A DNA stretch of 21,710 nt. It comes from a virus. Location of the stretch: the IMG/VR virus record IMGVR_UViG_3300049846_000519, positions 1 through 21,710 of that record, one strand, 5' to 3'. Below are positions 426 through 19,485 of the stretch, piece after piece (position 1 is the stretch's first letter; each line of letters starts with the position of its first letter). Made by a program: the position numbers and the translations under genes. A model generated the notes under the pieces. The model saw nothing but the letters and a program-made list of their open reading frames with translations, searched no databases and was not told where the DNA came from.

Positions 426-3400
426 GTTTTGAAAGAGTAAATATTGAGTTCCATGCCTCGGCTAATTTCCGTGATCTTATCACGCAGGTCCAGGCTGCCA
501 ACAGACAACTTGGCACGCTACAAAACAGTCTGAATCTTTCTAGTGCCAAAGGCATTGGCGATAGCGTCAAGGCCTTTGAAGATGCTATTAAACTCAGCGG
601 AATGTACTCCGTTAGCACTGCTGACGTTACTTCTGCCGAGAAAGCGTTTGGCAAGCAACTTGCTGAAAATAAACTTCGACTGAACGACTACACCCGGACA
701 CTGCGAGAGCACTACCGGCAGCGCGCTGCCGGAACTAGCATGATCAGTCGACTGGCTCGCCAGCAATTGCTGACAGAAAGAGCGATTGTTCTAGAGGCCG
801 GTAGAAACGCTGACGGCTCTATCAAGGCAACCTCGCTAAGACCAACCGCGCTATCTAACGACCTGGAAACCAAGGTTGCGATCAAGCGCAAGGAAATGCA
901 ACTTCTTAATACCGCAATTCAACAGGGATCGACAAAACTCATCGATTGGGGTAAGAATACTCAGTGGGCCGGTCGTCAGATCATGGTCGGTATCACCATC
1001 CCCCTTGGTATCTTCGGTGCAGCAGCAGGTAAGGCATTCTACGAACTAGACAAAGGCCTGACTCGTATGGTCAAGGTCTACGGAGACCTTGGCACAAAAC
1101 TGAGTGATGGTCAGGTTGCTAAACTCCGAGAAGATGTTACCGGCCTTGCGCGGGTCCTCGCGCAAGATTACGGAGCGTCCCTAGAACAAACAATCGGCCT
1201 AGCCGGTGACTTCGCTGCTGTAGGTCAACAGGGTAAAGACCTGCTTACATCAACAACCGAAGCGACCCGACTTGCTATCTTGGGAGAAGTAGATCGTCAA
1301 GACGCGATGAAAACAACGCTGGCCCTGACCAGCGCATTCCAGGTTAAAACAGAAGATTTGGCAGACGCGGTAAACTTTCTTAACGCGGTAGAAAACCAGA
1401 CCTCGCTTTCCCTGCAAGACCTGACCGTCGCAATTCCAAAGGCCGGTCCGCTAATTAGGAATCTCGGCGGAGACTATCAAGACCTCGCACTCTATCTGAC
1501 CGCTATGAAGGAGGGTGGAGTTAATGCGGGCGAAGGTGCTAACGCAATTAAATCCAGCCTTTCCTCTCTGATCGCACCCACAAAGGCCGCGACCGAGTAC
1601 CTTGCTGATCTTGGCGTAAACATTGTTGGGATTAGAGACGCCAACAAAGGTGATATTACGCAGTACATCCTTGACCTTAAGGCTGCACTAGACGAACTGG
1701 ACCCAACAGATCGTCAGGCAGCACTGGTTAAACTATTTGGTAAATATCAGGTCTCTCGTCTCACCGCCCTATTCGACAATATCGGCCGGGTTGGAAGTCA
1801 GACAAACAAGGTTCTGGATTTGACGAAGGCTAGCACCGAAGCCCTCGGAGACATTGCCGAACGAGAAATCAAGCAGGTCACACAGAGCCTTTCGGGTCAG
1901 TGGAACCGCGCAGTAGAAACTTTCAAAATCTCTCTAGCCAGTGTTGGTGAGGAATTCCTACGCATCGGAATCTTCATGGTGAACCTTGGAACAAAGGTTC
2001 TTGATTTCTGGTCGAACCTACCCGACACACTTAAGGGAGCAATAGCAATATTCTTGGGTCTTGTCGGAACCATCGGTGTTGTCATGATGAGCCTTGGTGT
2101 GTTCGCTAACCTTATCGGAACAGCAGTCAAGGGTATCATGCTACTCAGAAGGTTTGTCGACTGGCGTCGTGGACAAGTCACGTTCTGGGAGTACCTGAAC
2201 GAGCAGATGCACGTCAACAATCAACTTGGCGACAGAATGACAGCAGTGCTCAAAGACCAAACTCTCGCGACCAAGGTTTTTGCTGGCGAAGTAAAGATTC
2301 TTGTTGCTGCTCTTGAAAAACTATACACTACTCAAATGTCGTCCGTTAACGGAAGTCGGGCCGGTATTCGGATGATGCAGGCCCTTGAGGCTGAGCGCGC
2401 AGCAATGGCGACAACCGGAGATAGCGTACAACTAGGTCACGTCATGCCTTCAAACCTGATTACTGGAAGGGACCTTCTGGGCCCCGGTGCCAGCAAGAAC
2501 TGGTCCTTCTTGTACGGACTCCCATTTGCTCCTGAGACACTTGCGTCGAACCAAGGAACAATCGATACGGCCAGAAAGACTCAGGCTGCGTCAATCTACG
2601 CCACAGGAGATAATCTAAAGGCTTTTGACCCCATGGTCGCGGTGCGCGCCGCAGCGGGGCAGAGTGCTATTCAGTCAATTCTTGGTGGCAGAAATACGGG
2701 ATTTGATAAAATTCGTGCAAAGTACGAGGCGGCAGAAAGACTATTCTTTGCCGGAAAGATGGAAAAAGCAAGCCTAGCGTTCCAAGACTTTATGTCAAAT
2801 AGTGTGATTCGTGGCGAGCAGGTCGGGGTCATGTTTGAAAGAGAGTTTGGTAAGTTCTTTAACACATACCAAACGCTCTACAAAGAGATTGGTGCCCTAG
2901 ACCCGAAGAGCGATGCTTTCAAGGCTCGACTTAAGGCTGCCAGCGGTCAACTTGTGGACGACAAGGGTAAACTTGTAAACAACTACAAGCAACTTATGGA
3001 TGCTATTGAGGCTGGCCTAATTGACGGGCAGACCACGTTGTTCCAGATAGAGTCCTCTATCGAAGCACAGAAAATCCTTAGGCCCGGTCAGGCTCCAAGG
3101 ATCAGTAAGAGCGGCCAGGGAGGAAAGGGTAAGTTCGAAACCATCGGATACGGCGCAGGAAATCTATATGCTGGGGATGCCCGTGTAGCAGATCAGGTCG
3201 GTGACATTCAGATGAGCCTTCTAGACGACCTAGATGAACAGGAAAGGGTCATTGTTCAGTCTGTTGAAAACACCGAGGCAGAGAAGGAAGTCCAAAAAGA
3301 GCGTGCCAAGGTTGTTGAAAAAGAGCGCAAGACTCTAAAGCAAAGAATGTCTAAGGTTGGTAAGTACGGCGGAATTGCTGCCATGGGAGCCATGACGGCC

Positions 3401-5920
3401 TTGCCGTTCATGACGGAGACAGGTAACGCCTCCCTTGATAACACTGTGAATGTTGCCGGTGGTGCATCGATGGGCGCAATGATGGGAATGATGGCTGGTC
3501 CATGGGGTGCCGCAATCGGTGGTGTTATTGGTGGTCTTATTCCGGGAATCCAACTGCTTATCGACAAGGCCGGTGAGTTTGGTCGTGTAACCGAGGCTGC
3601 ATTCAGTGTCGGATCGGACGCCGCTGAAAGGTACGGACTAAAACTTCGTGACCTCAACGATATCACTATCGCGCAGCGCGAGGGCGGTGTCAACGGTGGC
3701 CGTGTGTCTGAAATTGCACAAAGCATTATGAACCAGGATGAATCAAGCCCTGACCGCATTCTTGCAGAGTTCATCAGAAGCGAAGAGAACATGGGCAATG
3801 TATTCGGTCGTCTTTCACAGCGGGCAGCAATGCTGGCTATCTCAGGAGCAAACCCAGAGCAGATAAAGGAACAAATCTCTGCTCTATTGGTGGCTGCCGG
3901 AAAGACGGATCAAATAATACAAATAAATGCTGCACTTGACCTCAACTTCAACAAGGACAAGAAGGGTAACTTTACCGGAACAGCAGAGAATGTTCGCAAA
4001 CTCGTTCAGGGCCAAATCAATGACGCCATGAGCAAGTTGAGCACAAACGAGACACAGGACTTGGTTAACAAGGCTTTCGGTGATAAGGCTGGCGCGATTG
4101 GCGAGGCTATCAAGAAAGGCCTGTTTGAGTTCGGAGGGGCTACCCCAGCAGATATTAAAGACTTTATCCCAAGCCCAACGGCCGAGCAGATCAATGCTTG
4201 GAAGCAGTACGAGTTTGCTATTCGCGCGGCCGGTCCGGCTGCGGAAGCCTTCGCGATGACAGAGGAAACAAAGGCCGCATTTGACGAGATAAGCAAAACT
4301 CTCTCCCAGGCAGCCGCAACGATGCCTATTGATAAGTTCTGGGAACTAGCAGACAGCCTAGATTATAGTAAACTGTCTGCCAGCCAGTTTGCCAACAGCA
4401 TCAGAGACGTGTATGGTGCTTCAAGCCCAATGTCTCAGGCACTTCTTCAAATGGCCGACGTAGGATATACGACTCAGCAAATGCTTCAAGGAATCGCCCT
4501 TGTTAATGCTGGTGTAATATCTTCTTGGCAGAGTCTACAGTCTATGGGTCCGGCCTACCTAGATGTTATCTACCGGACATTTGCAGCCAAGCAGGAGTTT
4601 GGAGCCTCCGTTGGAAAGAAACTTACTGACGAGGCCAACGATAAGCAAACCGCTGGAATTAACCCGAACGGAAGCCCAATCGGCGGGTCGGGAGTTAAGT
4701 CCTCTGGTGATGGTGGCGCTAGTGCATCTGACGCTCTTAACAAGAAGAAGAAGGCTATTCAGGACTACTACGACAAAGAAATAGAAAAGATCAAGGAGTC
4801 CGAGGAAGCCAAGAAGAAGGCCTTTGAGGCTGAGCAGCGTCGACTAGAGCGTCAAAAGCGTGACATGCAAACCATGATTTCCTATCGCGAAGCCCTCGCG
4901 GCAGGTGATTTCGCCGCAGCGGCCAAGGCTCAAATTCAACTTGAGTCTGACCGTAAGAAGGACGCGCTTGAGGATCAGCAGCGTGACGAAGAAAGCGCAG
5001 TCGCAAAGCGCATCAAGGCTCTTGAGGATGAGCGCGACAAGAAGATCGACGCAATCGACAAGGCCCTAGATGCTGCAAGGGCTGCTGACAAGGCCGCTGC
5101 TGGTTCTGCTGCGGGAGCAGCGGTTTCGGCCGGAAAGTCTTGGACCACCGTTATTGATGAAATTAACGCCGCAGTGTCGACCCTACCTACCAACTTTGAA
5201 GGTAGCATGGCTAAGTTGGTTCAGATTGCCAAAACAAATGGTCTGAGCGTCGGAAAGACAATCAAGTCGTCACTTGAGAGCGCCTTCGGAGATACTGGAA
5301 CTAAAATCTTTGATATTATCAAGGGTGATATTTCGAAGGCTCCGTGGTCGATGATTGGCGAGGTCGTTGAGGCAGCAATGGCTAAGGACCAGAACCTTCT
5401 TAACAAAAGGATTAACAGGCTTAAGGCCTATATCACGGCTGGCGGGGGCGCGGCGGGTGCGGCAGCGGTCGCAAAGCAGTCAAAGTTGGTCGATGATCCA
5501 CGGGCCGGGTACTCCTTCGGTGGAGCAATCCGTGGACCGGGTAGTGGAACTTCTGACAGCATTCCTGCATGGCTTTCAAACGGCGAGTATGTTATCCGGG
5601 CAGCAGCCGTTCGCAAGTATGGTCTTGGATTCATGGATAAACTAAATGATATGAAGGTTGCCCGCTTTGCTAACGGCGGTGCCGCCATTGGAAACTACAC
5701 CTGGAAGAAAGCATTTGCCACTGCACTATTCAGCACTGGTGGCTATGCCGGTGCGGGCATGTACGCTAATGGCGGTGCAATTGCGCCTTCAATTGGGCAC
5801 TATGGTAATATTACCGTAGAGGTTAACGTAACAGAGCCGGGATGCACGGCAGACGAAATCGTTGACGCAGCAATCAGGAAACTTGAGCGTAGGCAACGTA
5901 GAGTGGGAGCAAATCGTTAA
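422..5920 (+). CDS. Tail tape measure protein
   Basis: An 1832-residue protein that sets tail length and is packed inside the tail tube. Residues about 203-480 resemble the TP901-type tape measure core (KAFYELDKGLTRMVKVYGDL, then a DQDLALYLTAMKEGG-like section and SLSSLIAPTKAA). Hydrophobic segments occur at about 186-205, 534-575 and 980-1047, the last very rich in Gly, Met and Ala. Residues about 1438-1560 are a charged Lys/Glu/Ala coiled coil. The C-terminus has a motif common in tape measures (GPGSGTSDSIPAWLSNGEYV, near residue 1705), followed by repeats of NGG. At about 0.15 nm per residue, tail length would be near 270 nm. The TTG start at 422 overlaps the chaperone stop and is the only start before Met 61; no strong ribosome binding site is seen, so coupling is likely. 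It is the longest gene here and the surest call. Confidence 0.97.
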   Translation: MSFERVNIEFHASANFRDLITQVQAANRQLGTLQNSLNLSSAKGIGDSVKAFEDAIKLSGMYSVSTADVTSAEKAFGKQLAENKLRLNDYTRTLREHYRQRAAGTSMISRLARQQLLTERAIVLEAGRNADGSIKATSLRPTALSNDLETKVAIKRKEMQLLNTAIQQGSTKLIDWGKNTQWAGRQIMVGITIPLGIFGAAAGKAFYELDKGLTRMVKVYGDLGTKLSDGQVAKLREDVTGLARVLAQDYGASLEQTIGLAGDFAAVGQQGKDLLTSTTEATRLAILGEVDRQDAMKTTLALTSAFQVKTEDLADAVNFLNAVENQTSLSLQDLTVAIPKAGPLIRNLGGDYQDLALYLTAMKEGGVNAGEGANAIKSSLSSLIAPTKAATEYLADLGVNIVGIRDANKGDITQYILDLKAALDELDPTDRQAALVKLFGKYQVSRLTALFDNIGRVGSQTNKVLDLTKASTEALGDIAEREIKQVTQSLSGQWNRAVETFKISLASVGEEFLRIGIFMVNLGTKVLDFWSNLPDTLKGAIAIFLGLVGTIGVVMMSLGVFANLIGTAVKGIMLLRRFVDWRRGQVTFWEYLNEQMHVNNQLGDRMTAVLKDQTLATKVFAGEVKILVAALEKLYTTQMSSVNGSRAGIRMMQALEAERAAMATTGDSVQLGHVMPSNLITGRDLLGPGASKNWSFLYGLPFAPETLASNQGTIDTARKTQAASIYATGDNLKAFDPMVAVRAAAGQSAIQSILGGRNTGFDKIRAKYEAAERLFFAGKMEKASLAFQDFMSNSVIRGEQVGVMFEREFGKFFNTYQTLYKEIGALDPKSDAFKARLKAASGQLVDDKGKLVNNYKQLMDAIEAGLIDGQTTLFQIESSIEAQKILRPGQAPRISKSGQGGKGKFETIGYGAGNLYAGDARVADQVGDIQMSLLDDLDEQERVIVQSVENTEAEKEVQKERAKVVEKERKTLKQRMSKVGKYGGIAAMGAMTALPFMTETGNASLDNTVNVAGGASMGAMMGMMAGPWGAAIGGVIGGLIPGIQLLIDKAGEFGRVTEAAFSVGSDAAERYGLKLRDLNDITIAQREGGVNGGRVSEIAQSIMNQDESSPDRILAEFIRSEENMGNVFGRLSQRAAMLAISGANPEQIKEQISALLVAAGKTDQIIQINAALDLNFNKDKKGNFTGTAENVRKLVQGQINDAMSKLSTNETQDLVNKAFGDKAGAIGEAIKKGLFEFGGATPADIKDFIPSPTAEQINAWKQYEFAIRAAGPAAEAFAMTEETKAAFDEISKTLSQAAATMPIDKFWELADSLDYSKLSASQFANSIRDVYGASSPMSQALLQMADVGYTTQQMLQGIALVNAGVISSWQSLQSMGPAYLDVIYRTFAAKQEFGASVGKKLTDEANDKQTAGINPNGSPIGGSGVKSSGDGGASASDALNKKKKAIQDYYDKEIEKIKESEEAKKKAFEAEQRRLERQKRDMQTMISYREALAAGDFAAAAKAQIQLESDRKKDALEDQQRDEESAVAKRIKALEDERDKKIDAIDKALDAARAADKAAAGSAAGAAVSAGKSWTTVIDEINAAVSTLPTNFEGSMAKLVQIAKTNGLSVGKTIKSSLESAFGDTGTKIFDIIKGDISKAPWSMIGEVVEAAMAKDQNLLNKRINRLKAYITAGGGAAGAAAVAKQSKLVDDPRAGYSFGGAIRGPGSGTSDSIPAWLSNGEYVIRAAAVRKYGLGFMDKLNDMKVARFANGGAAIGNYTWKKAFATALFSTGGYAGAGMYANGGAIAPSIGHYGNITVEVNVTEPGCTADEIVDAAIRKLERRQRRVGANR

Positions 5921-6342: not shown

Positions 6343-9300
6343 TGCGCGGGTCTGTAGGAACGCAGAATTACCTCAAGCAGAACACAGTCATCACCACTTC
6401 TGATCGGGCGGTGCTGGAACTGAACATGAACCGGTACGCGACCCTTGCCGCAATACCTGATTCCGTGTATGGAACTGATCCTAACAAGATCGCCTACTAC
6501 AAGGCCAAGTTCCCGCTAGATTCTGTTACGTTGCCGAACCGGCCCGAATCTGGAATCTGCAAGGTGAAGTTCGGGGCGTACCCTTCCGCAACGTGGCAAA
6601 GCGCGGCGTATCTGCGGAACGTTTCGGCATCAGCAAATTATGACGCAGTAAACGACTGGTACACCTTAAAGCCACGATTCTATGTGGCCGGTCCAGACGA
6701 CAAGTATAAATACTTTACGTCATCTGTTGCACAGCCTAACCCTGAAATTACATACACGGCCGGTGTCTGGGCCAACAAGATTCGGGTCACCTTTGAAAAC
6801 AGCCTGCACTACCCGACCGCCTTCACCATTCAGATCAGGGCGACCGGTAGTGGAATCTGGACAACGATTGCTACGAATCCAACAATTCCAGCAAGCGGCG
6901 TAGTCGATGTGTACCGATCTGGAACAACATGGTCCACCGTCGAGCCAACACTTCCGGTGGCCGCAGACGCTATGTCAATTGATGGAATAAAGGTATCAAC
7001 CACGGCGATGAACGTATCTGACGGATATCTTGCAATCATCGAAATGTCTCCAAGACTCGTTGTTGATGTTACAGATTTCCTACAGGAGTATTCCGCAGAA
7101 GAAAACTTCTCCGAAGAGGACAATCTCGCTCCGGTAGGACTGATCAGCGCAAACTCTGGTAGTGCTACATTTCTCAACACCGGCAACGACTTTGAGCCTC
7201 GCAACACCAGCGGAGTAACAGCCAAGATTGCCGATCTGGTCAAGCGTTACACAGAACTCAGGGTCACTACCACCATAAATGCCGAGACTATCAAGATGGT
7301 CAGAATGCTTGTGGACAAATGGTCGGTTCAGGAAGGTGATACTGCCGAGGCGGAACTTTATGACGAGGCCACACCGCTTCAAAATACCGACTGTCCAGAA
7401 ATACTTTATCAAAACGTTACACCGTTCACAGCGGCGGTCAGGTTGCTAGATGCCGCTGGCTTCACGAAAGTTCGACTTCGTAAACTGTCCAGCGAAAAGG
7501 AGCCGACCCTTAACTTCTTCTTCACCACCAAGGACGAGACTGTCTGGGAAGCACTGCAAGAACTTTTCAGGACCTTCCAGTATTCAGCGTTCTTCGATGA
7601 GGACGGCTACCTCAACATTGCTACAAACGAGTGGATGTTCGGCCGGTCGACTCCTTCATGGACCTTCCGGGCAGATGCTAGCGGTCCAGACCTACCGGAT
7701 ATCATGGAGCACAGCGAGGAATCTACCGAGCCAGCCAACAAGGCGGTTGTGACATTTACGCCGCTGAACTCTTCACGAAACAATGACCCAGGAAACAGTT
7801 CCGCTGTCAGGAATAGCGACAGCGTGGCATTCGTCCGCCTAGCCAATAGAATCCTCTACTCTCCGGAGCGGGGCGTCCTGCTGGGATGTACTCTCCTTGA
7901 TCAGACTATGGATTCGACCCAGACATACGCATACATCCTGAATACATCGTTGAACAATGTATCCTGGGGCGCTTTTGCCGGTCACTTCATCGTGGACCAG
8001 GAGGTCATCAAATTTGATGGACTTGAATATTCTTTTAACAATAGCGGTGTTGTGACGACTGTGGTTGTGAAGAATTCCAACGAGTTGTCAGAGGTTATTT
8101 CCCGGGCCACTGGAAAGGTCCAATTCACGGGCAAGTTGTGCAACTTGGTCCGGGGACAGTTCGGTACTGCTGCGGTTGCTCACGGATTCAGTAAGGCAAG
8201 TTGGTCGATCCCATCAGCACAGGACCGGTATGTTCATGTTGTCACCGACTCAACCAAGCGCAATAGAAACCTATATATCTATAATTCTGTAGCCGGTACG
8301 TCTACTCGGACAACCGCGTACAAAGATTTGGGGGCATCAACATACAACACGTTCCGCCTTCGGATGAAGGTTGGTAAGAACGCTGCTGCTCGGGCCGGAA
8401 TCATCATATCGGCAGGTAAAGACGGAAGCAACAATATTACTTCTGGCTACATGATAACGCTAAATGCCACTGCTACAACTTCGACAAAGGAGTTAAGAAT
8501 TGAAAGAATAGGTGGAACCGGAACGCCACCAATTTTTGTCGGGGACGCAAACATTGACTACGAGGGCTGGGAAACAATTAACGTGACCACCCAGATGAAC
8601 AGCAATGGCGTTGATCGTATTTACCTAACCGGAGACACCTTCCGCCTCACCGCAACCTTTCCATCAAAGAAAATAACTTACACAAATGCAATTGCTTTAG
8701 TCTCCATTGGAAAGAGCAAGGCAACGTTTGATTGGGTTTCTGCTGGTAACGGTGATATCAACTATGTAAACTCTCAGCAGGAAGCGTTTCGTAGCGTGCT
8801 CCGGGCCGGGTCCGGACTGCTAGGAAATAGTTCAGGCTTCTTTGAGTCATTTGGTGACACCTGCCGAGAAATATTTGTGGACACGATCAGATTTGCCAAG
8901 GCACCGGCCCTGAATATCGAAGTGCTACCAACTGTCAACGCAGGAATCGGGGATAGTTCTCCGACTCCCGAGGTTGCGAAAACCAGTGATATTGCCTGGG
9001 GTATCAGCCAGGAGAGTCCTTTCTCTGCGCGACTGGCTATTGCTAATATCAGTTCCGAGCCTAAGATTCTAGACGAACTAGACTCTGGTCTTTACCCGCT
9101 AGTTTCTGGCCGGGTCGTAGAAGAGTTTGCCCCAATTGAAGTAACGGTGAAGAACCAGACAGCGATCAACCAGTTCGGAGAAAACAAGATCGAAATCCAG
9201 TCGAAGTGGATTAACGACCGCTCGACTGCTGACAAGATCGCTAATTGGGTTGTCAACCGGGCCGGTAAGCGGGAGCAGCACCAACTTCAAGTATTCGACA

Positions 9301-9449
9301 ACCCCCTTGTTGAAATAGGAGATATTGTGAACGTTGTATACGCAGCGAAGGGCATGACTGCTGGAACTGCTTATGTGGTAAAATCAGTATCAAGATCCGT
9401 AACGGTAGACGGCGGAATTGATACTAGTGTGACGGTTGTGAAAGTCTGA
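6342..9449 (+). CDS. Tail hub / tail-tip minor tail protein with inserted lectin-like domain
   Basis: A 1035-residue protein. Residues about 245-430 look like a baseplate-hub core: SAEENFSEEDNLAPVGLISA, then a strand-rich section and DETVWEALQELFRTFQYSAF, followed by GYLNIATNEW. Residues about 627-805 form a separate beta-rich block with repeated aromatic strands (RNLYIYNS, NTFRLRMKVG, GYMITLNA), resembling concanavalin/LamG-like sugar-binding modules. Hub-like sequence then resumes (REIFVDTIRF) and ends with NPLVEIGDIVNVVYAAKG near residue 987, a closing pattern common in actinobacteriophage minor tail proteins. It probably caps the tail tube and carries fibres, with the inserted module contacting the host surface. 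ATG 6342 overlaps the previous stop (TAATG). No peptidase or muramidase motif was recognised. Confidence 0.85.
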   Translation: MRGSVGTQNYLKQNTVITTSDRAVLELNMNRYATLAAIPDSVYGTDPNKIAYYKAKFPLDSVTLPNRPESGICKVKFGAYPSATWQSAAYLRNVSASANYDAVNDWYTLKPRFYVAGPDDKYKYFTSSVAQPNPEITYTAGVWANKIRVTFENSLHYPTAFTIQIRATGSGIWTTIATNPTIPASGVVDVYRSGTTWSTVEPTLPVAADAMSIDGIKVSTTAMNVSDGYLAIIEMSPRLVVDVTDFLQEYSAEENFSEEDNLAPVGLISANSGSATFLNTGNDFEPRNTSGVTAKIADLVKRYTELRVTTTINAETIKMVRMLVDKWSVQEGDTAEAELYDEATPLQNTDCPEILYQNVTPFTAAVRLLDAAGFTKVRLRKLSSEKEPTLNFFFTTKDETVWEALQELFRTFQYSAFFDEDGYLNIATNEWMFGRSTPSWTFRADASGPDLPDIMEHSEESTEPANKAVVTFTPLNSSRNNDPGNSSAVRNSDSVAFVRLANRILYSPERGVLLGCTLLDQTMDSTQTYAYILNTSLNNVSWGAFAGHFIVDQEVIKFDGLEYSFNNSGVVTTVVVKNSNELSEVISRATGKVQFTGKLCNLVRGQFGTAAVAHGFSKASWSIPSAQDRYVHVVTDSTKRNRNLYIYNSVAGTSTRTTAYKDLGASTYNTFRLRMKVGKNAAARAGIIISAGKDGSNNITSGYMITLNATATTSTKELRIERIGGTGTPPIFVGDANIDYEGWETINVTTQMNSNGVDRIYLTGDTFRLTATFPSKKITYTNAIALVSIGKSKATFDWVSAGNGDINYVNSQQEAFRSVLRAGSGLLGNSSGFFESFGDTCREIFVDTIRFAKAPALNIEVLPTVNAGIGDSSPTPEVAKTSDIAWGISQESPFSARLAIANISSEPKILDELDSGLYPLVSGRVVEEFAPIEVTVKNQTAINQFGENKIEIQSKWINDRSTADKIANWVVNRAGKREQHQLQVFDNPLVEIGDIVNVVYAAKGMTAGTAYVVKSVSRSVTVDGGIDTSVTVVKV

Positions 9450-10297
9450 TGGATTCTAGAAGCATTAAGTTCAGCCCAGCCACAATAGAAGAACTGAGGC
9501 GTGCGCTCTCCGAACCTGCTGATAACGAGGTCGAGTCTGAGACAGATCAGAGCGTAGACCTTGATTTCCCCTGGCCCATTACCATTGTTTCGCAGGGAGT
9601 ATCGACCGGTGATGACGGTGGTCAAGTTATTAATGTAACTCTTGGTTTTGAGTCTGTTGAGGGCGCTGAGGATTATGAGGTAAGAATCGCGCTAGTACCA
9701 GAGGTTACTAGTTTCTGGGATGGTATGTCTCCCTTTACATCCTGGGCCAGGAACGGAGCAGCCACCCTTATTACCGGCGGCACCGAAGTACAACTTCACT
9801 CTACTGCGGGAAGTACGACCGGATCTATTATTAGCCCCGAATTTGTTCCTAGCGGTTGGTCGGTGATCGACATAACAATTACAATGCTTATTTCTGGCGG
9901 TGGAGACGGGTGGGAGGTTACCCTCTGGGACGCGGCAACTCACGGAACAACAGAACTGGCTGCGGCAGGAACTAAATATAGCCGAGTTTTTGATAATCTC
10001 TGGGTGGCCTCTAATAATACTGATTTTAAGTCTAACGATGGCACAACAAACATAAATTACGTTGTTGGTGGAAATACGGCACGGAGCGGTTTTGAGGACA
10101 CGACACGCTTCGTGTGGACCAAGACCGGGGCAAATACCGCGTCTGTAAGCACTTACAGAAACGGTGTGCTTCAAATATCCTCACCGGGCGATCTTTGGGT
10201 GCCGGATACGGCCCGAATTGGTATTTGGGGATTCAACGGACTTCTTTCAAGCCACCAGAAGATAATTAAGGCTGTCACCGTTTATGCCAACGGATGA
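9449..10297 (+). CDS. Minor tail protein: acidic N-terminus, half FN3 domain, lectin-like domain
   Basis: A 282-residue protein starting at ATG 9449 inside the hub stop (TGATG). Residues 1-40 are helical then acidic (SEPADNEVESETDQS). Residues about 43-86 look like only the first half of a fibronectin-III domain (QVINVTLGFESVEGAEDYEV), then the fold breaks off. Residues 87-282 are a beta-rich, Trp-rich block resembling LamG/concanavalin-type lectins (SFWDGMSPFTSWARNG, DNLWVASNNTDF, ARIGIWGFNG). The missing second half of the FN3 domain appears at the start of the protein encoded from 11254, so this gene may be the product of a module insertion. A likely tail-tip receptor-binding component; ligand unknown. 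Confidence 0.75.
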   Translation: MDSRSIKFSPATIEELRRALSEPADNEVESETDQSVDLDFPWPITIVSQGVSTGDDGGQVINVTLGFESVEGAEDYEVRIALVPEVTSFWDGMSPFTSWARNGAATLITGGTEVQLHSTAGSTTGSIISPEFVPSGWSVIDITITMLISGGGDGWEVTLWDAATHGTTELAAAGTKYSRVFDNLWVASNNTDFKSNDGTTNINYVVGGNTARSGFEDTTRFVWTKTGANTASVSTYRNGVLQISSPGDLWVPDTARIGIWGFNGLLSSHQKIIKAVTVYANG

Positions 10298-10306
10298 TGC
10301 TTTTTT
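10278..10306 (+). terminator. Weak terminator-like hairpin with T6 tract
   Basis: CCGTT (10278-10282) and AACGG (10289-10293) can form a 5-bp stem over the end of the upstream gene, followed seven bases later by TTTTTT (10301-10306). The stem is short and the T tract is not directly adjacent, so the terminator reading is weak. It precedes a new promoter-like box. Confidence 0.25.
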
Positions 10307-10315
10307 CGTCTCGGA

Positions 10316-10324
10316 TGATATAAT
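10316..10324 (+). promoter_or_regulatory. Extended -10 promoter TGATATAAT (leaderless start at 10331)
   Basis: A perfect TGnTATAAT box whose last base is followed by six bases and then ATG 10331. Transcription starting at the normal distance would begin on or next to the A of that ATG, giving a leaderless mRNA. There is no clear -35 and no Shine-Dalgarno sequence. The 11-mer GATGATATAAT recurs exactly at 14701-14711. Confidence 0.6.
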
Positions 10325-10330
10325 TTGAGC

Positions 10331-11254
10331 ATGGAGCCAACCGGATTTTATAGAGTCTACGAAAATGGTGATTTGATTGCAGAGTCTCCAAACGTAGTCA
10401 CAACTCTAGGTAAAAAAGCAATAGCCGACCATTTAGCCGGAATTATTCCGGATTGGGCCGGGTCGATTGCTGTCGGTGTTGGCTCAACAACAGCAACTTC
10501 ATCTGACAAAAGACTGGTATTTGAGACTACCCGTTCTTCTGTTTCCAGCAAGGTTGTATCCTACGGGGGCGGTACTGCCGGGGCGCACAGGATTATCGTT
10601 AAGGCTACCCTGGACCCAGAAATCGCCGGTACGTTCAGCGAAATGGGAGTATTTTCACTAGACCGTAACGATTCTCTAGGTAATTACAGTTCTACGATGA
10701 TTTCTTTCTGTGACTCCACTGAAACATGGCAGCAGTACAACGGATCAGACTGGATTGCAAACCCCAATAGCCCAGACACCACCAACGAGAAAAACGGTAT
10801 CGACGCAGTAGCACTCACGTCGGCCGGTTCAGCAGTGCGCTACCGCCTGAGCGGCCTAGATATCAACCTTGCAGAATATGCATCAACAGACCTATTTCTG
10901 TTTGCAGCAAAAGTAAATGCTGGCTCTCTTACCACCATGGTTGTACGGTTCAACACCGACGACTCCAATTACTACACCTATACCACGCCAACCTTCGCCA
11001 CCGGAACATATGGGGTGGTCTCGTATGCGAAATCCAACTGGACTGCTGTTGGCTCACCATCTTGGGGAAATATCACCAGCATAGAGTTCACAGTAACCGG
11101 TACCGGACTGACTTTGATGCTTGATGGTATTCGAATTGAAGAGGTAGAGTCAGCGAACCCTGATTACGTTCTTGTCAGTCGGTCGGTGCTGGGAGCGCCC
11201 ATCGTCAAGAGTTCTGGAAGCCTTCTAGAAGTCGAATACTACCTGGACTACTAA
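10331..11254 (+). CDS. Minor tail protein with CBM-like domain
   Basis: 307 residues if started at ATG 10331. A TTG six bases upstream is in frame but lies directly against the -10 box, so ATG is preferred. Residues 1-118 form an adaptor-like beta domain (FYRVYENGDLIAESPNVVTT, later GTFSEMGVFSLD) of a type found in phage tail-fibre proteins. Residues about 119-275 resemble a carbohydrate-binding module: CDSTETWQQYNGSDW, GSAVRYRLSGLDINL, then TGLTLMLDGIRIEE. The end is VSRSVLGAPI and EVEYYLDY. It has its own promoter-like box and lies between two genes that each hold half of one FN3 domain, suggesting later acquisition. It probably sits at the tail tip and binds surface glycan; the ligand is unknown. 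Confidence 0.7.
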   Translation: MEPTGFYRVYENGDLIAESPNVVTTLGKKAIADHLAGIIPDWAGSIAVGVGSTTATSSDKRLVFETTRSSVSSKVVSYGGGTAGAHRIIVKATLDPEIAGTFSEMGVFSLDRNDSLGNYSSTMISFCDSTETWQQYNGSDWIANPNSPDTTNEKNGIDAVALTSAGSAVRYRLSGLDINLAEYASTDLFLFAAKVNAGSLTTMVVRFNTDDSNYYTYTTPTFATGTYGVVSYAKSNWTAVGSPSWGNITSIEFTVTGTGLTLMLDGIRIEEVESANPDYVLVSRSVLGAPIVKSSGSLLEVEYYLDY

Positions 11255-12924
11255 TGGAATATTTACTTAAAAACCTACAGGGCGGTAGAACGTATGCAGT
11301 TCAGATCAGGTCCGTCGCTGGTGATGACGTATCTGAGTGGAGCCCGACATTCCAGGTAACAGCGGCGAGCGACTCGACGGTTCCTCGACAACCGACCGGT
11401 CTCACGGGGTCAGTCCAGGGGTCATCCTTTGTTCTAACATGGACTCCTCCTACTAGAAACACAAACAACACGCTTGTCCGAGATATCAAAGACTATGAGT
11501 TAACCATTACCGATGGATCAACCACTGTTAAGCGATACTACGACACGGCCAAAGCACAGTACAGTATAGATGACAATATTACCGACTTTACAACAGCCAA
11601 GCCTTCACTAACTTTTTCGGTAAAAACTCGCGACAAAACCGGTAACCTATCTGTTGCCAGCAACTCCGTCGTCCTCACAAATCCGGTTCCGGCCACTCCG
11701 ACTGGTGTCACAGCGACTACTTCTTACGCTGGTGCAAACATCAAGTGGACCAAGGTCGCGGACACCGACATTCAACTTTACGAAGTCTACTACGGAACAA
11801 CGGCCGGTTTCACTCCCGACACCACAACATTCTCCAACCTCGGATACACTGGCCCGAACGTCAATGCTGTTATTGACACTATAACCTCAGGAACCTACTA
11901 CTTCAAGGTTTGCGCGGTCGACGTTTTTGCCCAGCGCGGAGGATTTGGTTCCTCTGCTGGGGCTACCGTGGGCGGAGGAACCGCCGGAAGCATCACAGTC
12001 AAAGACGAAGGCACAACACTGACAACAACAGCAACTTCCATTAACTTTGTTGGTGGTGGCGTTGTTGCAACAAACTCCGGTGGCGATGTTACCGTAACGG
12101 TGGGCGGTGGTGGATCAGCCTACGCCGCAGACATTGGTAATGGAACAGCGACAAGTTTTACGATTACTCACGGCCTTGCCACAAGGGATGTTCTAGTTCA
12201 AATATACGAAAATGGGGCACTGTATCAAAATGTAGATGTAGACATTCGTCATACGTCTACTAGTGCTGTTGATCTTGTATTTTCTATCGCTCCGACAACT
12301 AATCAGTACCGAGTTGTCATTTTGCCAGCGGGAGTGGGCGGCGGGCTGACGAGCCCTTGGACCAAGACCCTAGACAATCCTCTCACATCACTATCTAACC
12401 TTACTTCTACAAGTGATGGTGGAACGTGGGCAATCGACGGAGGAACCGGCCAACTAAGACAAACCGACACTGGCGCTAATGTGAGAACTTATAGGTCTAC
12501 CGACCAAACCCTGATGCGCCCAAACATGATCATAGAGGCAGAAGTTAAATACAACTCTGGCTCAGGATCAATCAGAAGAATGGGAATATTTGCGGGCGGT
12601 CAAGCATCTAGTTCCGGTGCTTTTCTAGTATACTTGCAAACTGATTCGGCTGCTACGGCATGGTCAGTTAACACTGAGCAGGCAGCAATTTTAGCAACCG
12701 GAGGAATAACTACAAGTCATAGCACGGCTAATTGGGCAACACTCAGAGCAGAAATTAACGGTGGCGGAGCCACAATTTTTCTTAACGGAACATTCCTCAT
12801 GTTCATTAGAAACATTCACTGGCAGGCATCCACAACTAATGCGCCCAATGTTGGGGTATACACCTATGGCTGTGACGCAACATTCAGAAACCTAAAGATT
12901 TGGAGTTTGGCCTCAACCGCCTGA
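11254..12924 (+). CDS. Minor tail protein: FN3 repeats plus lectin-like C-terminal domain
   Basis: A 556-residue protein whose ATG overlaps the previous stop (TAATG). Residues 1-37 are only the second half of an FN3 domain (YLLKNLQGGRTYAVQIRSVA then SEWSPTFQVTA). Complete FN3 domains follow at about 43-143 (PTGLTGSVQGSSFVLTWTPP) and 144-238 (PTGVTATTSYAGANIKWTKV, YYFKVCAVD). After a Gly-rich linker, residues about 289-366 form a small beta domain common in phage tail proteins (TSFTITHGL, VQIYENGALY). Residues 367-556 resemble a LamG/concanavalin-type lectin (MRPNMIIEAEVKY, WATLRAEINGGGATIFLNG, FRNLKIWSL). Function: tail-tip structural and probable glycan-binding protein. Translation is likely coupled to the upstream gene. 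Confidence 0.8.
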   Translation: MEYLLKNLQGGRTYAVQIRSVAGDDVSEWSPTFQVTAASDSTVPRQPTGLTGSVQGSSFVLTWTPPTRNTNNTLVRDIKDYELTITDGSTTVKRYYDTAKAQYSIDDNITDFTTAKPSLTFSVKTRDKTGNLSVASNSVVLTNPVPATPTGVTATTSYAGANIKWTKVADTDIQLYEVYYGTTAGFTPDTTTFSNLGYTGPNVNAVIDTITSGTYYFKVCAVDVFAQRGGFGSSAGATVGGGTAGSITVKDEGTTLTTTATSINFVGGGVVATNSGGDVTVTVGGGGSAYAADIGNGTATSFTITHGLATRDVLVQIYENGALYQNVDVDIRHTSTSAVDLVFSIAPTTNQYRVVILPAGVGGGLTSPWTKTLDNPLTSLSNLTSTSDGGTWAIDGGTGQLRQTDTGANVRTYRSTDQTLMRPNMIIEAEVKYNSGSGSIRRMGIFAGGQASSSGAFLVYLQTDSAATAWSVNTEQAAILATGGITTSHSTANWATLRAEINGGGATIFLNGTFLMFIRNIHWQASTTNAPNVGVYTYGCDATFRNLKIWSLASTA

Positions 12925-12941: not shown

Positions 12942-14696
12942 ATGACAAATCTAAGAATTCCTTTACCACTGCTTTCGATGACTTCCGACCCGACCGGCCC
13001 AACGGCCGCGTCCGGATTCATGTATTTCAACAGCAGCCTTGGTCAGGTTCGTGTATATAACGGAAGCACATGGGTCTCTGTTGGTACTGGCGCAGGTGGT
13101 CCAACTGGTGCTACCGGCCCTACCGGTCCGCAGGGTCCTACTGGCCCAGCCGGATCAGGAGCGACTGGTCCCACCGGAGCGCAGGGCCCTACTGGTCCTA
13201 CGGGACCAACGGGGCCTCAGGGAATTCAGGGTTCCACCGGTCCAACAGGTGCTCAAGGTGCAACTGGAAGCGCGGGAGCAACCGGCCCAGCAGGACCTAC
13301 TGGACCTCAGGGGCCAACCGGGTCCCAGGGTGCTACCGGCGCTCAGGGACCGACCGGTACTTCCGGAGCCACTGGTCCACAGGGAGCCACCGGCCCAACT
13401 GGCCCACAAGGTATTCAAGGAATTACTGGACCTACGGGGACACAGGGCGCTACAGGAAATTCTGGCCCTACTGGTGCTACCGGAGCAACTGGTGCTACCG
13501 GCCCAGCCGGGGCCACAGGACCGACTGGTCCTCAGGGAATTCAAGGTATCACTGGGCCAACAGGCGCGCAGGGCGCGACTGGTCCTGCTGGTGCCACGGG
13601 CGCAACAGGTGCCCAGGGCTCTACCGGGCCACAGGGTCCAACCGGACCCCAAGGCCCGACAGGTGCCACTGGTCCTAGTGGATTAAGCATAACCGGTCCA
13701 ACGGGACCAACGGGAGCGACCGGTGCCACCGGACCGCAGGGACCAACCGGCCCAGCCGGAAGTGGATCGGGCGGCGGATTCTACTATCAGAGCACCGGCC
13801 CAACAGGCACCCTTGCCATTGGTGATAGGTGGATTGATTCAGACACAGGAATTGGATACACCTGGATCAACGACGGCGACAATACAACTTGGTTTGAAGC
13901 ATCTGCTTCCGGTCTAGTTGGAGCAACAGGTGCCACTGGACCGACCGGTCCTCAGGGACCTACCGGAAGCGCAGGAGCAACCGGGCCGCAGGGAGCAACC
14001 GGTCCAGCGGGAGCCACCGGCCCAGCAGGACCAACCGGGGCCCAAGGACCGACAGGATCGACCGGAGCAACCGGACCGGCTGGAACGACTGGACCAACCG
14101 GACCTGCTGGACCAACGGGTAATACTGGTGCTACGGGACCGCAAGGAATCACCGGTCCTGCCGGGGCAACTGGACCGACTGGATCAAGCGGTCCGACAGG
14201 AGCCACTGGTCCAACCGGTGCATCGGGCGGAAATACACTAAAAGCAGAAAGAACGACTGACACCGCCTCTATTGCAAACACCGAGACTCAGGTTATCAGT
14301 TACACTGCTGCCTCTAACGAACTGGTGGTCGGTAGTGTTGTCAGAATTCAGGCCTACTACACAAGGACCGGTACTAACGCAGCCCAGGGTACGGCGCGAC
14401 TAAGAATAGGAACAACAACTCTGACGGGAAATATCGTTTCCACCCTGACAATGCCTGCGGCTGCCACCGCTGTTTCCGGATATATAGAGTTGATCGGAGT
14501 CATCAGGACAACAGGAACAACAGGAACAACTCGTGGTAACGCGATTAATCACCATCAGGCAACTACCCCTCTTGTATCAGCAACAACCTCGGTCACGGTG
14601 AACACCACGGTTTCCAATATTATTGAAATGACTTTTATTTCCGGTCAGGCTGCTAACGGATATATCTTCTCGCATGCTACTATCGAGATTTTGTGA
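12942..14696 (+). CDS. Collagen-like tail fibre protein 1
   Basis: A 584-residue protein. Residues 1-50 form a short adaptor with the pattern [14 protein letters not shown]. Gly-X-Y collagen repeats run over about 53-277 and 324-429, mostly GPT, GAT, GPQ and GPA triplets, with small interruptions ([19 protein letters not shown]). Between them is a Trp-containing island ([20 protein letters not shown]). The last 150 residues are a Cys-free beta domain ([18 protein letters not shown] to HATIEIL), probably a trimerising tip. Collagen-like stalks of this kind form long trimeric fibres on virions. Thr dominates the Y position, as in bacterial collagens such as Bacillus BclA, where Thr carries O-linked sugar. 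It has its own promoter-like box. Confidence 0.9.
13098..13770 (+). repeat. Collagen Gly-X-Y repeat tract, fibre 1, part 1
   Basis: About 75 Gly-X-Y triplets, most of them GPT, GAT, GPQ or GPA, with GPQGIQG recurring three times. The DNA is not a simple repeat: Gly, Pro and Thr use several synonymous codons in mixed order (acc, act, aca, acg for Thr). Confidence 0.9.
13911..14229 (+). repeat. Collagen Gly-X-Y repeat tract, fibre 1, part 2
   Basis: About 105 residues of Gly-X-Y triplets after the Trp-containing island, ending in [11 protein letters not shown] before the C-terminal beta domain. Confidence 0.9.
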
Positions 14697-14702
14697 GCCT
14701 GA

Positions 14703-14711
14703 TGATATAAT
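14703..14711 (+). promoter_or_regulatory. Extended -10 promoter TGATATAAT before fibre 2
   Basis: A perfect TGnTATAAT box in the 29-base gap after TGA 14694-14696. Fourteen bases separate it from ATG 14726, so the 5' leader would be only about 7-8 bases and too short for a normal Shine-Dalgarno sequence. The 11-mer GATGATATAAT is identical to that at 10314-10324. Confidence 0.55.
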
Positions 14712-14725
14712 GTTAAAGATGACAT

Positions 14726-17700
14726 ATGCCGATTAATTTTCCTTCTTTACCGGCCCTCAACGACACATACTCTTTTGGTGGTAGAACTTGGCGTTGGAAC
14801 GGGGACGGCTGGCAAGCACTTAATTCCGGAGGTCCACAGGGTCCTACCGGTCCTCAGGGTGCAACTGGTCCGACAGGTCCAATAGGAACCACGGGCAGTG
14901 CAGGCCCAACTGGAAACACTGGTGCAACTGGACCAACTGGTCCAGCAGGAGCCACGGGCCCAACTGGTAATACCGGTGCCACGGGAGCGCAGGGGGCGAC
15001 AGGGCCCGCAGGGGCTACGGGCGCAACTGGTCCAACAGGATCGCAAGGACCAACAGGTAGTATTGGACCAACTGGTCCACAGGGCGCTGCTGGACCTACA
15101 GGTGCCACGGGAGCAACGGGTGCGGCTAGTACCGTCCCCGGCCCAACCGGGCCTACCGGTCCGACTGGACCGCAGGGTGCCACGGGTGCGACTGGTGCCG
15201 CCAGCACTGTCCCGGGGCCGACAGGAGCAACTGGTGCTACCGGCCCAGCGGGGCCGACTGGTCCGACAGGTCCGACAGGATCGCAGGGACCTACCGGCTC
15301 GCAAGGTGCTACCGGACCGGCAGGTGCGACCGGTGCTACGGGAGCAACGGGCTCTCAAGGAATTCAGGGAATAACCGGTCCCACCGGGCCTCAGGGCACA
15401 ACCGGTCCAACCGGAGCACAGGGTGCCACCGGTTCTGCCGGTCCAACTGGTGCAACCGGTGCGACGGGTCCCGCTGGCGCGACGGGGCCGACTGGTCCTC
15501 AAGGTATAACCGGTCCAACTGGTGCGACCGGGGTCGGTTATTCAGGAGTAACGTCTACAACCTCCCTTGCTATCGGTACTGGTGCCAAAGCCTTTACAAC
15601 TAATACAGCAAACCACGCCTTTGTCCTGGGCAACAGGGTTCGTGTTGTTAACTCTTCAACTAACTGGATGGAAGGAAACATCACCACCCTGGCCGGTACA
15701 TCTATGACAGTAACCGTAGATGTAACGTCCGGATCAGGCACGCTTGCCTCATGGACATTCTCTATTGCTGGAATTCAAGGCGCTACTGGCCCAACGGGAA
15801 GCACTGGACCTACCGGTGCAGGCGCAACCGGCCCGACCGGCCCTACGGGAGCACAGGGGCCAACCGGGCCGACAGGAGCGCAAGGCGCTACCGGAGCACA
15901 GGGTGCTACCGGAAATACTGGAAACACAGGAGCGACTGGCGCAACTGGACCGACAGGTCCCCAGGGTGCCACGGGACCAACTGGTGCCACTGGCGCAACT
16001 GGAAGTGCGGGATCAACGGGACCAACGGGTGCTACCGGAGCGTCCGGTCAGTACAAGACTTCTGTGGTAGCGGCAACTACGGCAAACATTACTCTTTCTG
16101 CTCCACAAACAATTGATGGTGTATCAGTTATCGCTGGGGATAGAGTTCTGGTCAAGGATCAATCTACTGCGTCAGCAAACGGTATTTATGTTGCGGCAGC
16201 CGGTGCCTGGACTCGGGCCACCGATGCAGATACGTCAGCAGAAATGGCCGGTGCTGTAGTAAGTGTAAACGCGGGCACAACAAACGGGGGAGAAGTTTTC
16301 ACAACAAACTTCAAGAGTACGGACACCCTGGGCACAACATCAATGTCTTGGTTTAACGTTGTAGACTCCGGAACAACACAAACCTTGGCGGGCAAGACGC
16401 TTACGTCCCCGGTAATAAATGGTGGAACCATAACTGGTGCTATTTCTGGAATTCCAACTTTTACTGGAACACCGGCATTCTCAAGTAATGGTTTTACTTC
16501 TACCGGCCCAATAAACCTTAATACTGGAAACTTTAGTCCCGAGATTATATTTAATCCAAACGCGGGGGTACAAAGAACCATATCTTTCCGGTCGGCTGGT
16601 GTTCGTAGATGGGACCTTCTTGTTGATAATTCTACTGAGTCTGGATCTAATGCTGGCTCCAACCTATCGCTTACAAGGTCGAGTGACGCTGGGGCCTCGC
16701 TGGGTCAAGTGCTCGGCATAAACAGGGCAACCGGTGCCGTAACTATAGACGGCTCAGTAGCACTGAACGGCGGAGGAACGCTTTCTGGAACACTTACCGG
16801 CGGCACGCTTGATTCCACTACATTGACAAATGCGGTAATAGTAGATGGATATTCTGCAAAATTGGTCGTAACGGCTGCCACCACCGCCAACATTACCTTG
16901 TCTGGAACCCAGACAATAGACGGTATAGCGGTCGTTGCCGGAAATAGAGTTCTTGTTAAGAACCAGTCTACTTCATCAGCAAACGGAATATATTCTGTTG
17001 CTGCTGGGGCCTGGACGAGAGCAACTGACGCAAATACGTCTGCAAAAATTTCGGGGGCGCTCGTTGCCGTTCAGTCGGGAACAGTAAACGGTGGCCTTAA
17101 CTTTACCACAAACTTCAAGTCCACAGATACCCTTGGCACAACAAGCATGCTGTGGTATCGCGTACTAGACTCTCGTAGCATAACTTATGGATCATCATTT
17201 CCGACTAACCCCGCTGACGGCCAGGTTTATTATGATCAAGGATCGCTGACGCCTGGATCTAATGTTCTTCCTTCTGATATGGCAACCAACACCGCGAACT
17301 GGACCTCGTTTGGTTTTGGTTACAACACAGGACAAACATATGCTCTAAACGGCGGATTTGTAGAAATTACATGGTCTGCGTCCAGCGGGCAACTTTCTGG
17401 ATATAATGCAGCAACGTTGACTACGGGTGTTCAATACATGCTTGCAGTCAAATTGCGTGTTCCTAGTGGATCACCCGACGTTAGACTATGTTTAGCCTTT
17501 AGAACGAGTGGCGACTGGATCACTGTAAAGGATCAGGACGTAGTTGTTTATATGCCTTTCTGGGCATGGGAAACTGCTGGCCCGGTTGGAATAGAAAAGA
17601 TTTCAAGCAGCACTGGAACATGTATTGTAAAATCAATGACTCTTTTTGCTGCTTCTGGAACTGGAGCACCGGCATACGTTTGGGATGCTGCTGCTTCACA

Positions 17701-18427
17701 ATGGGTAATGATGGAGCCAAGTGGGGCGCTACCAAATTCTTATAACTTTGTCAACAGGTTTTCCGGTCAAGATATTGCTGGCGCAAAGAACTTTGTCACC
17801 GATCTTCAAAAGGCGGGGGCGTCAGTAGAGCCATCAGGCCAGATTACTATGTTTGCTGGTGCTACTGCACCGAACGGATGGTTGCTATGTCAGGGACAGG
17901 CTGTTTCTCGTACGACATACGCTAGCCTGTTCTCAGTGATTTCTACAACATATGGAGCGGGCGATGGGTCAACGACATTCAATGTCCCTAACCTCGTCGG
18001 CCGTGTTGCTGTAGGTCTTAACTCAGCAGATGCCATTATGGATACGCTTGGTGAAACCGGTGGTAGCAAGGACTCCGTGGCTGTGAGCCACTCTCACAAT
18101 ATTAGCCATACGCACACAACCGCTGCTGTAGCAAATGGAGCAAACGGTACTTCTGCCAACGCTGTCCATTCCCACGGAATTACGCTGTACTCAAATACAG
18201 CATTTGACTCTACCGGTGGTGCGCGACCCGTTGGTGGTGACGGTACAGCGGTTCCAGCAACTCCGACCGTAGGAACATCTGTAGCGTCCGATAACGGAAC
18301 TCACACTCACCCTCTGCCTGCTCTATCAACCGATAGCCAGTCTGTCACAAGCGTCACAGACGGTGTGTCAGGAACAAACGCCAATATGCAGCCATTTATT
18401 ACGTTGAACTACATCATCAAGACTTAA
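14726..18427 (+). CDS. Collagen-like tail fibre protein 2 with tail-collar domain
   Basis: A 1233-residue protein. Residues 1-35 form an adaptor ([19 protein letters not shown]). Collagen repeats cover about 36-270, with two [11 protein letters not shown] interruptions, and about 349-441, separated by a beta domain of about 75 residues. Two copies of a 106-residue domain follow, at about 443-548 and 708-816. Next is a Trp-rich CBM-like block at about 850-985, flanked by [13 protein letters not shown] and [13 protein letters not shown]. From about 1038 ([33 protein letters not shown]) the sequence matches the phage tail collar domain also found in microcystin-dependent proteins, with His-rich [11 protein letters not shown] and the usual ending [15 protein letters not shown] receptor-binding fibre. 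Its stop overlaps the convergent glycosyltransferase gene by four bases. Confidence 0.92.
14831..15535 (+). repeat. Collagen Gly-X-Y repeat tract, fibre 2, part 1
   Basis: About 235 residues of Gly-X-Y triplets with Thr favoured at Y. The same non-triplet interruption, AASTVP, occurs twice, near 15122 and 15198, and may mark flexible joints in the stalk. Confidence 0.9.
15770..16050 (+). repeat. Collagen Gly-X-Y repeat tract, fibre 2, part 2
   Basis: About 93 residues of Gly-X-Y triplets with a short irregularity (GAGATGPTG), running directly into the first copy of the duplicated beta domain. Confidence 0.88.
16052..16369 (+). repeat. Duplicated fibre domain, copy 1
   Basis: Encodes about 106 residues beginning [16 protein letters not shown] and ending near [10 protein letters not shown]. 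It shares long identical stretches with copy 2 at 16847-17173 ([42 protein letters not shown]). The domain type recurs in phage fibre proteins; its fold is unknown to me. Confidence 0.88.
16847..17173 (+). repeat. Duplicated fibre domain, copy 2
   Basis: Second copy of the domain at 16052-16369, starting [19 protein letters not shown] and ending [10 protein letters not shown]. Differences are mostly conservative and the DNA has diverged at synonymous positions, so the duplication is not recent. About 160 residues of fibre sequence separate the copies. Confidence 0.88.
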
Positions 18428-19485
18428 TAATTGGCATGCTGGGAGTACCACGTCATGTTGTTAACAAGGCGGGGGTCCTGTCCCATGGTCAACTCTACCG
18501 CCTTTTTACCGTGTCCAAGTGCTTCGTAGTAAAGTCCCAACTGAAAAGAAGAAATTGCTGCTAGGTCGTGAGGAAGAGCGCCCCAGCAGTAATCCTCCGT
18601 GATGTATTCAAGGTTCTTTTCACGAATCTTGAGGGCGGAAAGGGCGGCAGAAAGACACTCTTGCCAGTCTGCTTTTTCGTAGTAGAACAGGGAAAGGTCG
18701 ACAAATGACTCCCGTTGTTCCGGTGCTTCGATACCGGCTCTGACTAGCCATTCTGTATCCCCGGTGATCTTGTACAGATAGCGCATAGATGCAGCACGTT
18801 CGGCTTTCCAGGTCGAGGTCGGTAGTGCAAGGTGCCGCTTGAACTCTGCCTCTGCCTCATCCTTCATACCATAAAAGAAATATTCGCGTGCAAGATAGTG
18901 GGCATTACGGGAATCGTCTGGGTTTTCCTCTACCGCCAGTTTGAGTAGCGGGAGGTACTGAGCCCTGGGCTTAGATGGGTCCGGGTGGTGGTGAATCTTG
19001 ATGTTAGACCAGTTCTGGGTTTCGATGAACCCTTCGACCGGTAAGAGGACTTCGTGAACCGGATATGTCCACCTATAGCCGTGACGTGAATGAATCTTTT
19101 CCCCACTGAAAACTACTCGCGGGGTGCCGTCCTCGTTCCAGGCCCAGGTGTATTCGTAGCGTAACCTAGTGACGCCCGGAACGAATGAATATTCAACTGT
19201 TTTACGCCAATCTTCGTTTCCAAATACCTCGTCCATGTCCAAGGCTATACAAACATCTGCATCTTCTGGAATTGCGTCAAGGGAGAGTTGCCGTGCCACG
19301 TCGAATCTCCAAGGATCGACGGTTATCGGTACCACGGTAACACCCAGGGATTCCGCAAGTTCTACAGTCTTATCGGTCGAGCCGGTGTCTGCTATGATGA
19401 GGTAGTCTGCGTCTTTGGCTGTGTCCGCCCATTTTTGGACGAACTGTTCCTCGTTCTTAGCAATGGTGTAAACAGCAATCTTCAT
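18424..19485 (-). CDS. Family-2 glycosyltransferase with helical C-terminal half
   Basis: A 353-residue protein. The frame stays open upstream, but the conserved family start [15 protein letters not shown] at 19485 and a -10 box six bases before it fix the start. Residues 1-170 form a GT-A domain with DTGSTDKT at 33-40 and the metal/nucleotide-sugar motif DMDE at 83-86. Further motifs are PWRFDVAR and [10 protein letters not shown]. The C-terminal half is alpha-helical and TPR-like ([33 protein letters not shown]), usually a protein-binding scaffold. No membrane segment or signal peptide is present, so it acts in the cytoplasm. The only minus-strand gene here, it faces the collagen-like fibre genes and overlaps the second by four bases. 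Its acceptor is unknown; virion fibre Thr/Ser residues are a plausible target, and DNA or host surface sugars are alternatives. Confidence 0.9.

Follow-up and report, generated by a model that had tools for sequence, protein, structure and literature searches.

Fibronectin type III (FN3) and Ig-like domains are common in phage tails, and the literature searched yielded no paper on a phage FN3 that is split, nor one on an FN3 divided between two genes throughout a phage group. In the Stanwilliamsviridae, among them Samisti12, TunaTartare, Annadreamy and Karimac, three genes lie after those for the tape measure and the hub; they are annotated as a small hypothetical protein, a 'tail protein' and a 'minor tail protein' and are here called S, M and L. 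The same gene order and the same half-FN3 ends occur in a 21.7-kb phage fragment of 51% GC, hereafter the window (IMG/VR record IMGVR_UViG_3300049846_000519, the whole stretch from position 1 to 21,710), whose M and L are homologous to those of the Stanwilliamsviridae. The Rhodococcus phages Trina, Dorin and Francesca also share the S-M-L layout and half-domain borders of the window; their M is 21-24% identical to that of the window and their S is without the extra block found there. From the three genes of the window, P1 (S), P2 (M) and P3 (L), and their relatives, we propose with moderate confidence that one tail-tip FN3 of these siphophages is made from two half-domains encoded in two genes and assembled in trans. 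The features concerned are as follows.

9449-10297, forward strand: P1, the S gene (282 amino acids), comprising an N-terminal helix, a linker, the half-FN3 and an extra C-terminal block (open reading frame; half-FN3 homologues)
9476-9511, forward strand: N-terminal helix of P1 (residues 10-21, 'ATIEELRRAL'; AlphaFold2 and alignment with the S paralogs of the two nearest relatives, L095 and L049)
9569-9703, forward strand: first half of the split FN3, putative strands A-B-C (P1 residues 41-85; phrog_11696, S alignment and AlphaFold2)
9707-10294, forward strand: extra C-terminal block of P1 (~196 amino acids), absent from S of the Stanwilliamsviridae and Rhodococcus phages
10331-11254, forward strand: P2, the M gene, a middle tail protein of 307 amino acids (phrog_9983, phage tblastn matches and alignment)
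11254-12924, forward strand: P3, the L gene, a minor tail protein of 556 amino acids opening in mid-FN3 (phrog_11445)
11257-11367, forward strand: second half of the split FN3, strands E-F-G (P3 residues 2-38; Pfam, hhalign, strands of the AlphaFold2 chimera and Foldseek)
11380-11976, forward strand: two complete FN3 domains (P3 residues ~43-241, limits approximate; two Pfam fn3 stretches)

A sequence-only reading of the window had placed P1, P2 and P3 at the correct coordinates and in the correct frames. It had also proposed that two genes each carry about half an FN3, which stands, as the halves plausibly belong together, and that a cassette had been inserted into a gene of this particular phage, which does not. 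The split is real, but old instead of local.

The L half is recognisably FN3. P3, with the N-terminal sequence 'MEYLLKNLQGGRTYAVQIRSVAGDDVSEWSPTFQVTAAS', starts in mid-domain, since its residues 2-35 match positions 50-83 of the 84 in Pfam fn3 (PF00041; E 0.0027, 39 amino acids searched alone), a profile built from relatives of this N-terminus aligns with the end of intact FN3 domains in unrelated phages (hhalign P=2e-10), and the next Pfam fn3 in P3 opens at residue 46 (the first stretch covers 46-94). The strands of PF00041 matched by the L half are E-F-G. The family phrog_11445 opens at the same mid-FN3 point, its positions 1-239 matching residues 1-241 of P3 (E 2.4e-42), as do the annotated L genes of the named phages. 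The Pfam and hhalign matches thus bear out the earlier view that P3 begins with only the second half of an FN3. The L half (11254-11367 in the window) and its homologues have, towards the end, an invariant S-x-W-S, similar to the WSxWS of cytokine-receptor FN3 domains; this likeness is probably convergent.

For the S half the support is weaker. Residues 29-80 of P1 match phrog_11696 (E 0.0025), a 120-amino acid family that ends directly after the matched stretch, and the half-domain (41-85) recurs as the C-terminal end of proteins of 112-140 amino acids in Streptomyces Stanwilliamsviridae and Rhodococcus phages. In the former, and in Trina, Dorin and Francesca, S finishes with a '..VVDVVIELEDVTGATEYDVRMTKA'-like sequence directly before the stop. 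Homologues of the half-FN3 stretch were present in 82 fetched loci, duplicates included. The C-terminal ~45 amino acids are the most conserved part of S (mean pair identity 43% vs 33% over the remainder). This conserved stretch resembles FN3 strands A-B-C and stops at the point expected for the end of strand C. Joined, the S and L profiles give 85 aligned columns spanning all 93 of an FN3 profile, which is one FN3 length. The N-terminal helix of P1 is kept only within the clade of the window.

Structure prediction made use of a contig from IMG/VR (L015) in which S and L lie in the same frame. Reading through the middle, with stops replaced by glycine, gave a chimera in which ~290 residues of nonsense, read out of frame, join the end of S to the start of L; it was modelled with AlphaFold2 from 26 aligned rows. 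The predicted local distance difference test score (pLDDT) was 93-96 over residues 21-60 on the S side, 88-96 over residues 361-400 on the L side and ~30 over the nonsense linker; strands were assigned at 23-33, 39-47 and 53-63 (S side) and at 360-366, 371-380 and 392-395 (L side). As a control, P1 was modelled by itself, without L and with nearly the same S rows. Here pLDDT was 89-96 over residues 41-80, and only strands A (44-53) and B (59-67) were assigned; strand C, at a pLDDT of about 89-94, had no beta partner, whereas strand C of the chimera (53-63) was assigned as extended. A strand C that is paired only with L present is expected if an FN3 is completed in trans, since C pairs with F. 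The models thus support the view that both halves fold confidently together, strand C being paired only in the presence of L. Many of the FN3 matches of the chimera in Foldseek were cytokine receptors.

The split is conserved. The order S half, M, L half was seen in 42/42 distinct loci in which all three genes could be recognised, and S and L never occurred in one open reading frame. These loci include named phages of Streptomyces and Rhodococcus, two bacterial genera, and their S/M/L junctions are mostly 4-nt ATGA overlaps. In the window the start of P3 overlaps the stop of P2 (TAATG), and a 33-nt gap separates P1 from P2, for which an ATG at 10331 is the start used and a TTG at 10325 a possible alternative. 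As M lies between both half-domains in every relative examined, the split must be ancestral to them, and the S-M-L group appears to be a large set of phages of soil and freshwater bacteria in which it is old and conserved. A programmed frameshift joining S, M and L was considered and set aside, as the junction sequences, from which alone this was judged, have stop/start overlaps of the ordinary kind and nothing that is obviously a slippery site. A distant clade (L077-L099), in which the N-terminus of L is not detectably FN3, was excluded from the 42. Its three-gene layout is similar: M is homologous (E about 1e-52 to 1e-57), and an end resembling that of S is present (hhalign P 7e-4).

What sets the phage of the window apart from its distant relatives is only the ~196-amino acid block after the half-domain. 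Single-protein searches for close relatives of P1 found none in phages, and pattern scanning of IMG/VR found none for P1 or for the P3 N-terminus. The block (residues 88-282) had been described as lectin-like, a description that finds no backing in Pfam, where it has no match, in the PDB, where no useful sequence match was obtained, or in AlphaFold2, which modelled it mostly at pLDDT <50; a Foldseek search with the P1 model returned nothing meaningful. In the two nearest relatives S is repeated in tandem (L095, 3155-5957, with copies of 525, 94 and 315 amino acids; L049, 4179-5965, with copies of 280 and about 316-320), an arrangement seen, among the fetched loci, only in the clade of the window. 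The helix, the 'FPWPIT' motif and the half-domain are common to all of these copies; most of the C-terminal blocks bear no relation to each other, and the 94-amino acid copy (4729-5013) is the bare module without any block. A constant module with differing blocks indicates that cargo is attached at the point where strand C ends. In another locus (L097, 5451-5999) a different domain is inserted before, not after, the half-domain of an S protein. After L, the nearest relatives also carry a family of ~330-amino acid proteins, with one copy in L095 (8258-9256), which has no Pfam match, and two in tandem in L049 (8012-9993); the copies are 43-46% identical.

In the arrangement we propose, the constant module of S (P1) would supply strands A-B-C and the extreme N-terminus of L (P3) strands E-F-G. 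The halves would associate at the baseplate or tail tip into a composite FN3, docking S onto the long, FN3-rich L. The natural break would fall at the exposed CD loop, as judged from the strands assigned in the model, leaving the end of the S half free to carry cargo: none in most relatives, the ~196-amino acid block in P1 of the window, and differing blocks on the two to three tandem S proteins of the closest relatives. The conserved order and split, the FN3 identity of the L half and the constant S module with its changing cargo are established; trans assembly in the virion, the docking of S onto L and glycan binding by the cargo and P2 are inferred. More speculatively, the split FN3 may be a reusable dock, at which S proteins with different blocks compete for the L half, yielding mixed adhesins in a virion population while L stays unchanged; we regard this extension as rather unlikely.

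Several observations weigh against trans assembly of a single domain, and some of them favour another explanation. P1 residues 32-86 alone are not called fn3 by Pfam, the S half has no significant match to FN3 by hhalign (probability <2%), and in a weak test by column shuffles of S, 29/800 reached or exceeded the real joined-profile score. The S half also matches either FN3 half about equally well, so that its resemblance is not specific to the N-terminal half. The suggestion that P1 holds the first half of an FN3 is supported by phrog_11696 and the AlphaFold2 strands and left wanting by Pfam and the sequence statistics. In the models, pLDDT of the S half is high without L as well, only strand assignment separates the two runs, and chimera (L015) and control (P1) use different query proteins; Foldseek, which does not bridge the linker, matched no more than some 40 residues of the chimera, probably those of the L half, with a root-mean-square deviation down to 1.1-1.3 A. 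Contact between S and L, with putative C-F and B-E pairing, is supported rather than shown. Furthermore, two to three S paralogs for a single L gene clash with a simple 1:1 stoichiometry, and no virion structure of this phage group was found in the literature searched. The two stretches may instead not form one domain: the end of S would be a short beta-hairpin that joins a baseplate protein such as the hub, and the N-terminus of L would be an incomplete FN3 that another chain completes, for example with the last strand of M. The missing FN3 signal in the S sequence, the confident hairpin without L and the several S copies in L095 and L049 all agree with this, as does the mycobacteriophage Mysterious, in which the hub C-terminus and a strand of the distal tail protein engage accessory proteins (PMC13252515). 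It fits less well with strand C of S gaining its pairing once the L half is added, and with the complementary lengths and break point of S and L; we consider it rather unlikely. Less probable again is that S and L do not touch and that, in a symmetric tail tip, copies of each half combine among themselves into homo-oligomeric, domain-swapped sandwiches. In mycobacteriophage baseplates both the central fibre protein and the hub protein form trimers, and copies of the same chain may therefore be close; direct evidence for such swapping is lacking, however, and the halves look complementary rather than self-complementary.

As to how the split arose, an ancestral single FN3 gene may have received M in its CD loop and later been cut at both borders into three translationally coupled genes, with the P1 block of the window joining at the same loop afterwards. 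This origin, which is compatible with a trans-assembled FN3, is tentative. In all 42 loci the order S (A-B-C), M, L (E-F-G) is the one in which an FN3 carrying M in its CD loop would read, and in most relatives short overlaps of stop and start form the borders. However, no undivided or fused S-M-L relative, for which the sequence-only reading had advised a search, was found in 50,697 phage records or in the fetched IMG/VR loci, and the direction of change is not inferable without an outgroup. No prophage relatives were found in genome contigs either. A tblastn search with the joined domain returned, outside the known group, only generic complete-FN3 proteins (Microbacterium, Curtobacterium and other phages; E 0.006 or worse), and the loci of the four inspected were not homologous to S-M-L. 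Insertion as the origin of the split is therefore unproven and may hold for a distant ancestor. The version first put forward, a recent insertion of a lectin and carbohydrate-binding module (CBM) cassette into the minor tail gene of the window's phage, agrees with the absence of the P1 block from distant relatives. It is nevertheless very improbable, given that M and both borders are conserved in all relatives examined, named phages of two genera included. P2, which that reading had made part of the cassette, is a conserved middle tail gene present in every one of those relatives.

Other features of the window are the genes upstream of S and two sites in or near P2.

422-5920: tape measure gene, upstream of S-M-L
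between the tape measure and hub-like genes: a gene of 140 amino acids
6342-9449: hub-like minor tail protein (1,035 amino acids)
10319-10324, forward strand: exact TATAAT in the sequence, previously taken as a promoter box
10664-11150, forward strand: CBM-like, putatively jelly-roll stretch in P2 (limits approximate; fold suggested by its pattern only)

P2 matches phrog_9983 (E 4.9e-49), and M has tblastn matches in 129 phage records. Its CBM-like stretch, which is also present in relatives, follows the N-terminal domain and precedes the last strands; it has no Pfam match that would make it a member of a CBM family. The labels lectin, for the P1 block, and CBM, for P2, therefore stay putative. 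Nor is a separate promoter for P2 supported: the TATAAT was not detected as a two-hexamer promoter, having no recognised -35, and the region has no more promoter-like sites than chance would give (4 vs 2.8 +/- 1.6 expected). Two stretches of ~200 amino acids, in the hub (8184-8783) and at the end of P3 (12331-12921), belong to no family and seem beta-rich; neither shows sequence kinship to the P1 block. P3 is followed by two large collagen-like (GPTGATG) fibre genes (12942-18427), the second with a Tail Collar domain. Adjoining these two threonine-rich fibre genes is a reverse-strand gene (18424-19470) with a weak glycosyltransferase family 2 match and a TPR-like part, the product of which could glycosylate both. 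A weak H-type lectin match, slightly under the Pfam cut-off, lies at 19979-20395 (E 7.8e-5).

Taken together, the data point to a conserved split FN3, probably assembled in trans, with a lineage-specific cargo block in the phage of the window. If this is true, the gene of an autonomous fold has undergone a fission that selection has kept, a natural counterpart of an engineered split-domain system would exist, and the swapping of adhesin blocks on the tail tips of large actinobacterial phages would be explained. Annotation would also change, as the conserved 'hypothetical protein' encoded between the hub and the tail protein would then represent half a structural domain.

Compared with the Stanwilliamsviridae, the window has the same order of genes (tape measure, a protein of 130-140 amino acids, a hub of ~1,000 amino acids, S, M, L), the same type of M (phrog_9983) and the same mid-FN3 start of L (phrog_11445 position 1). 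Their S, however, is a protein of about 112-137 amino acids with an acidic linker that ends directly after strand C with no C-terminal block, whereas P1 has the helix and 'FPWPIT' motif and runs on for 196 amino acids; their L is 1,100-2,030 amino acids long, against 556 in the window. The likeness concerns the tail module: membership of the family is a matter of whole-genome relatedness and a genome of ~130 kb, and the window is a 21.7-kb fragment. In the mycobacteriophage Mysterious, a beta-sandwich-like domain is common to three different baseplate proteins, gp35, gp36 and gp37 (PMC13252515). This heterotrimer is similar to S-M-L in that accessory baseplate genes with consecutive numbers share a beta-sandwich. 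In Douge and Claus, CBM-like proteins of the baseplate have been linked to cell-wall glycans, and BppU of both phages, with an Ig-like or N-terminal domain and a CBM, combines a dock with a glycan-binding module. Neither the Mysterious proteins nor BppU are described as a split FN3, and no homology to them was found. For engineered FN3, PMC11666773 (citing Dutta 2005) reports that two fragments cut at the CD loop (45/46) reassemble, with reduced stability, and bind their target, and that this cut was the most efficient split. That cut is artificial, made in one known domain and tested at the bench, whereas the S/L split is natural and predicted only; a CD-loop cut and assembly in trans, as in monobody fragment complementation, are what S and L would have in common with it.

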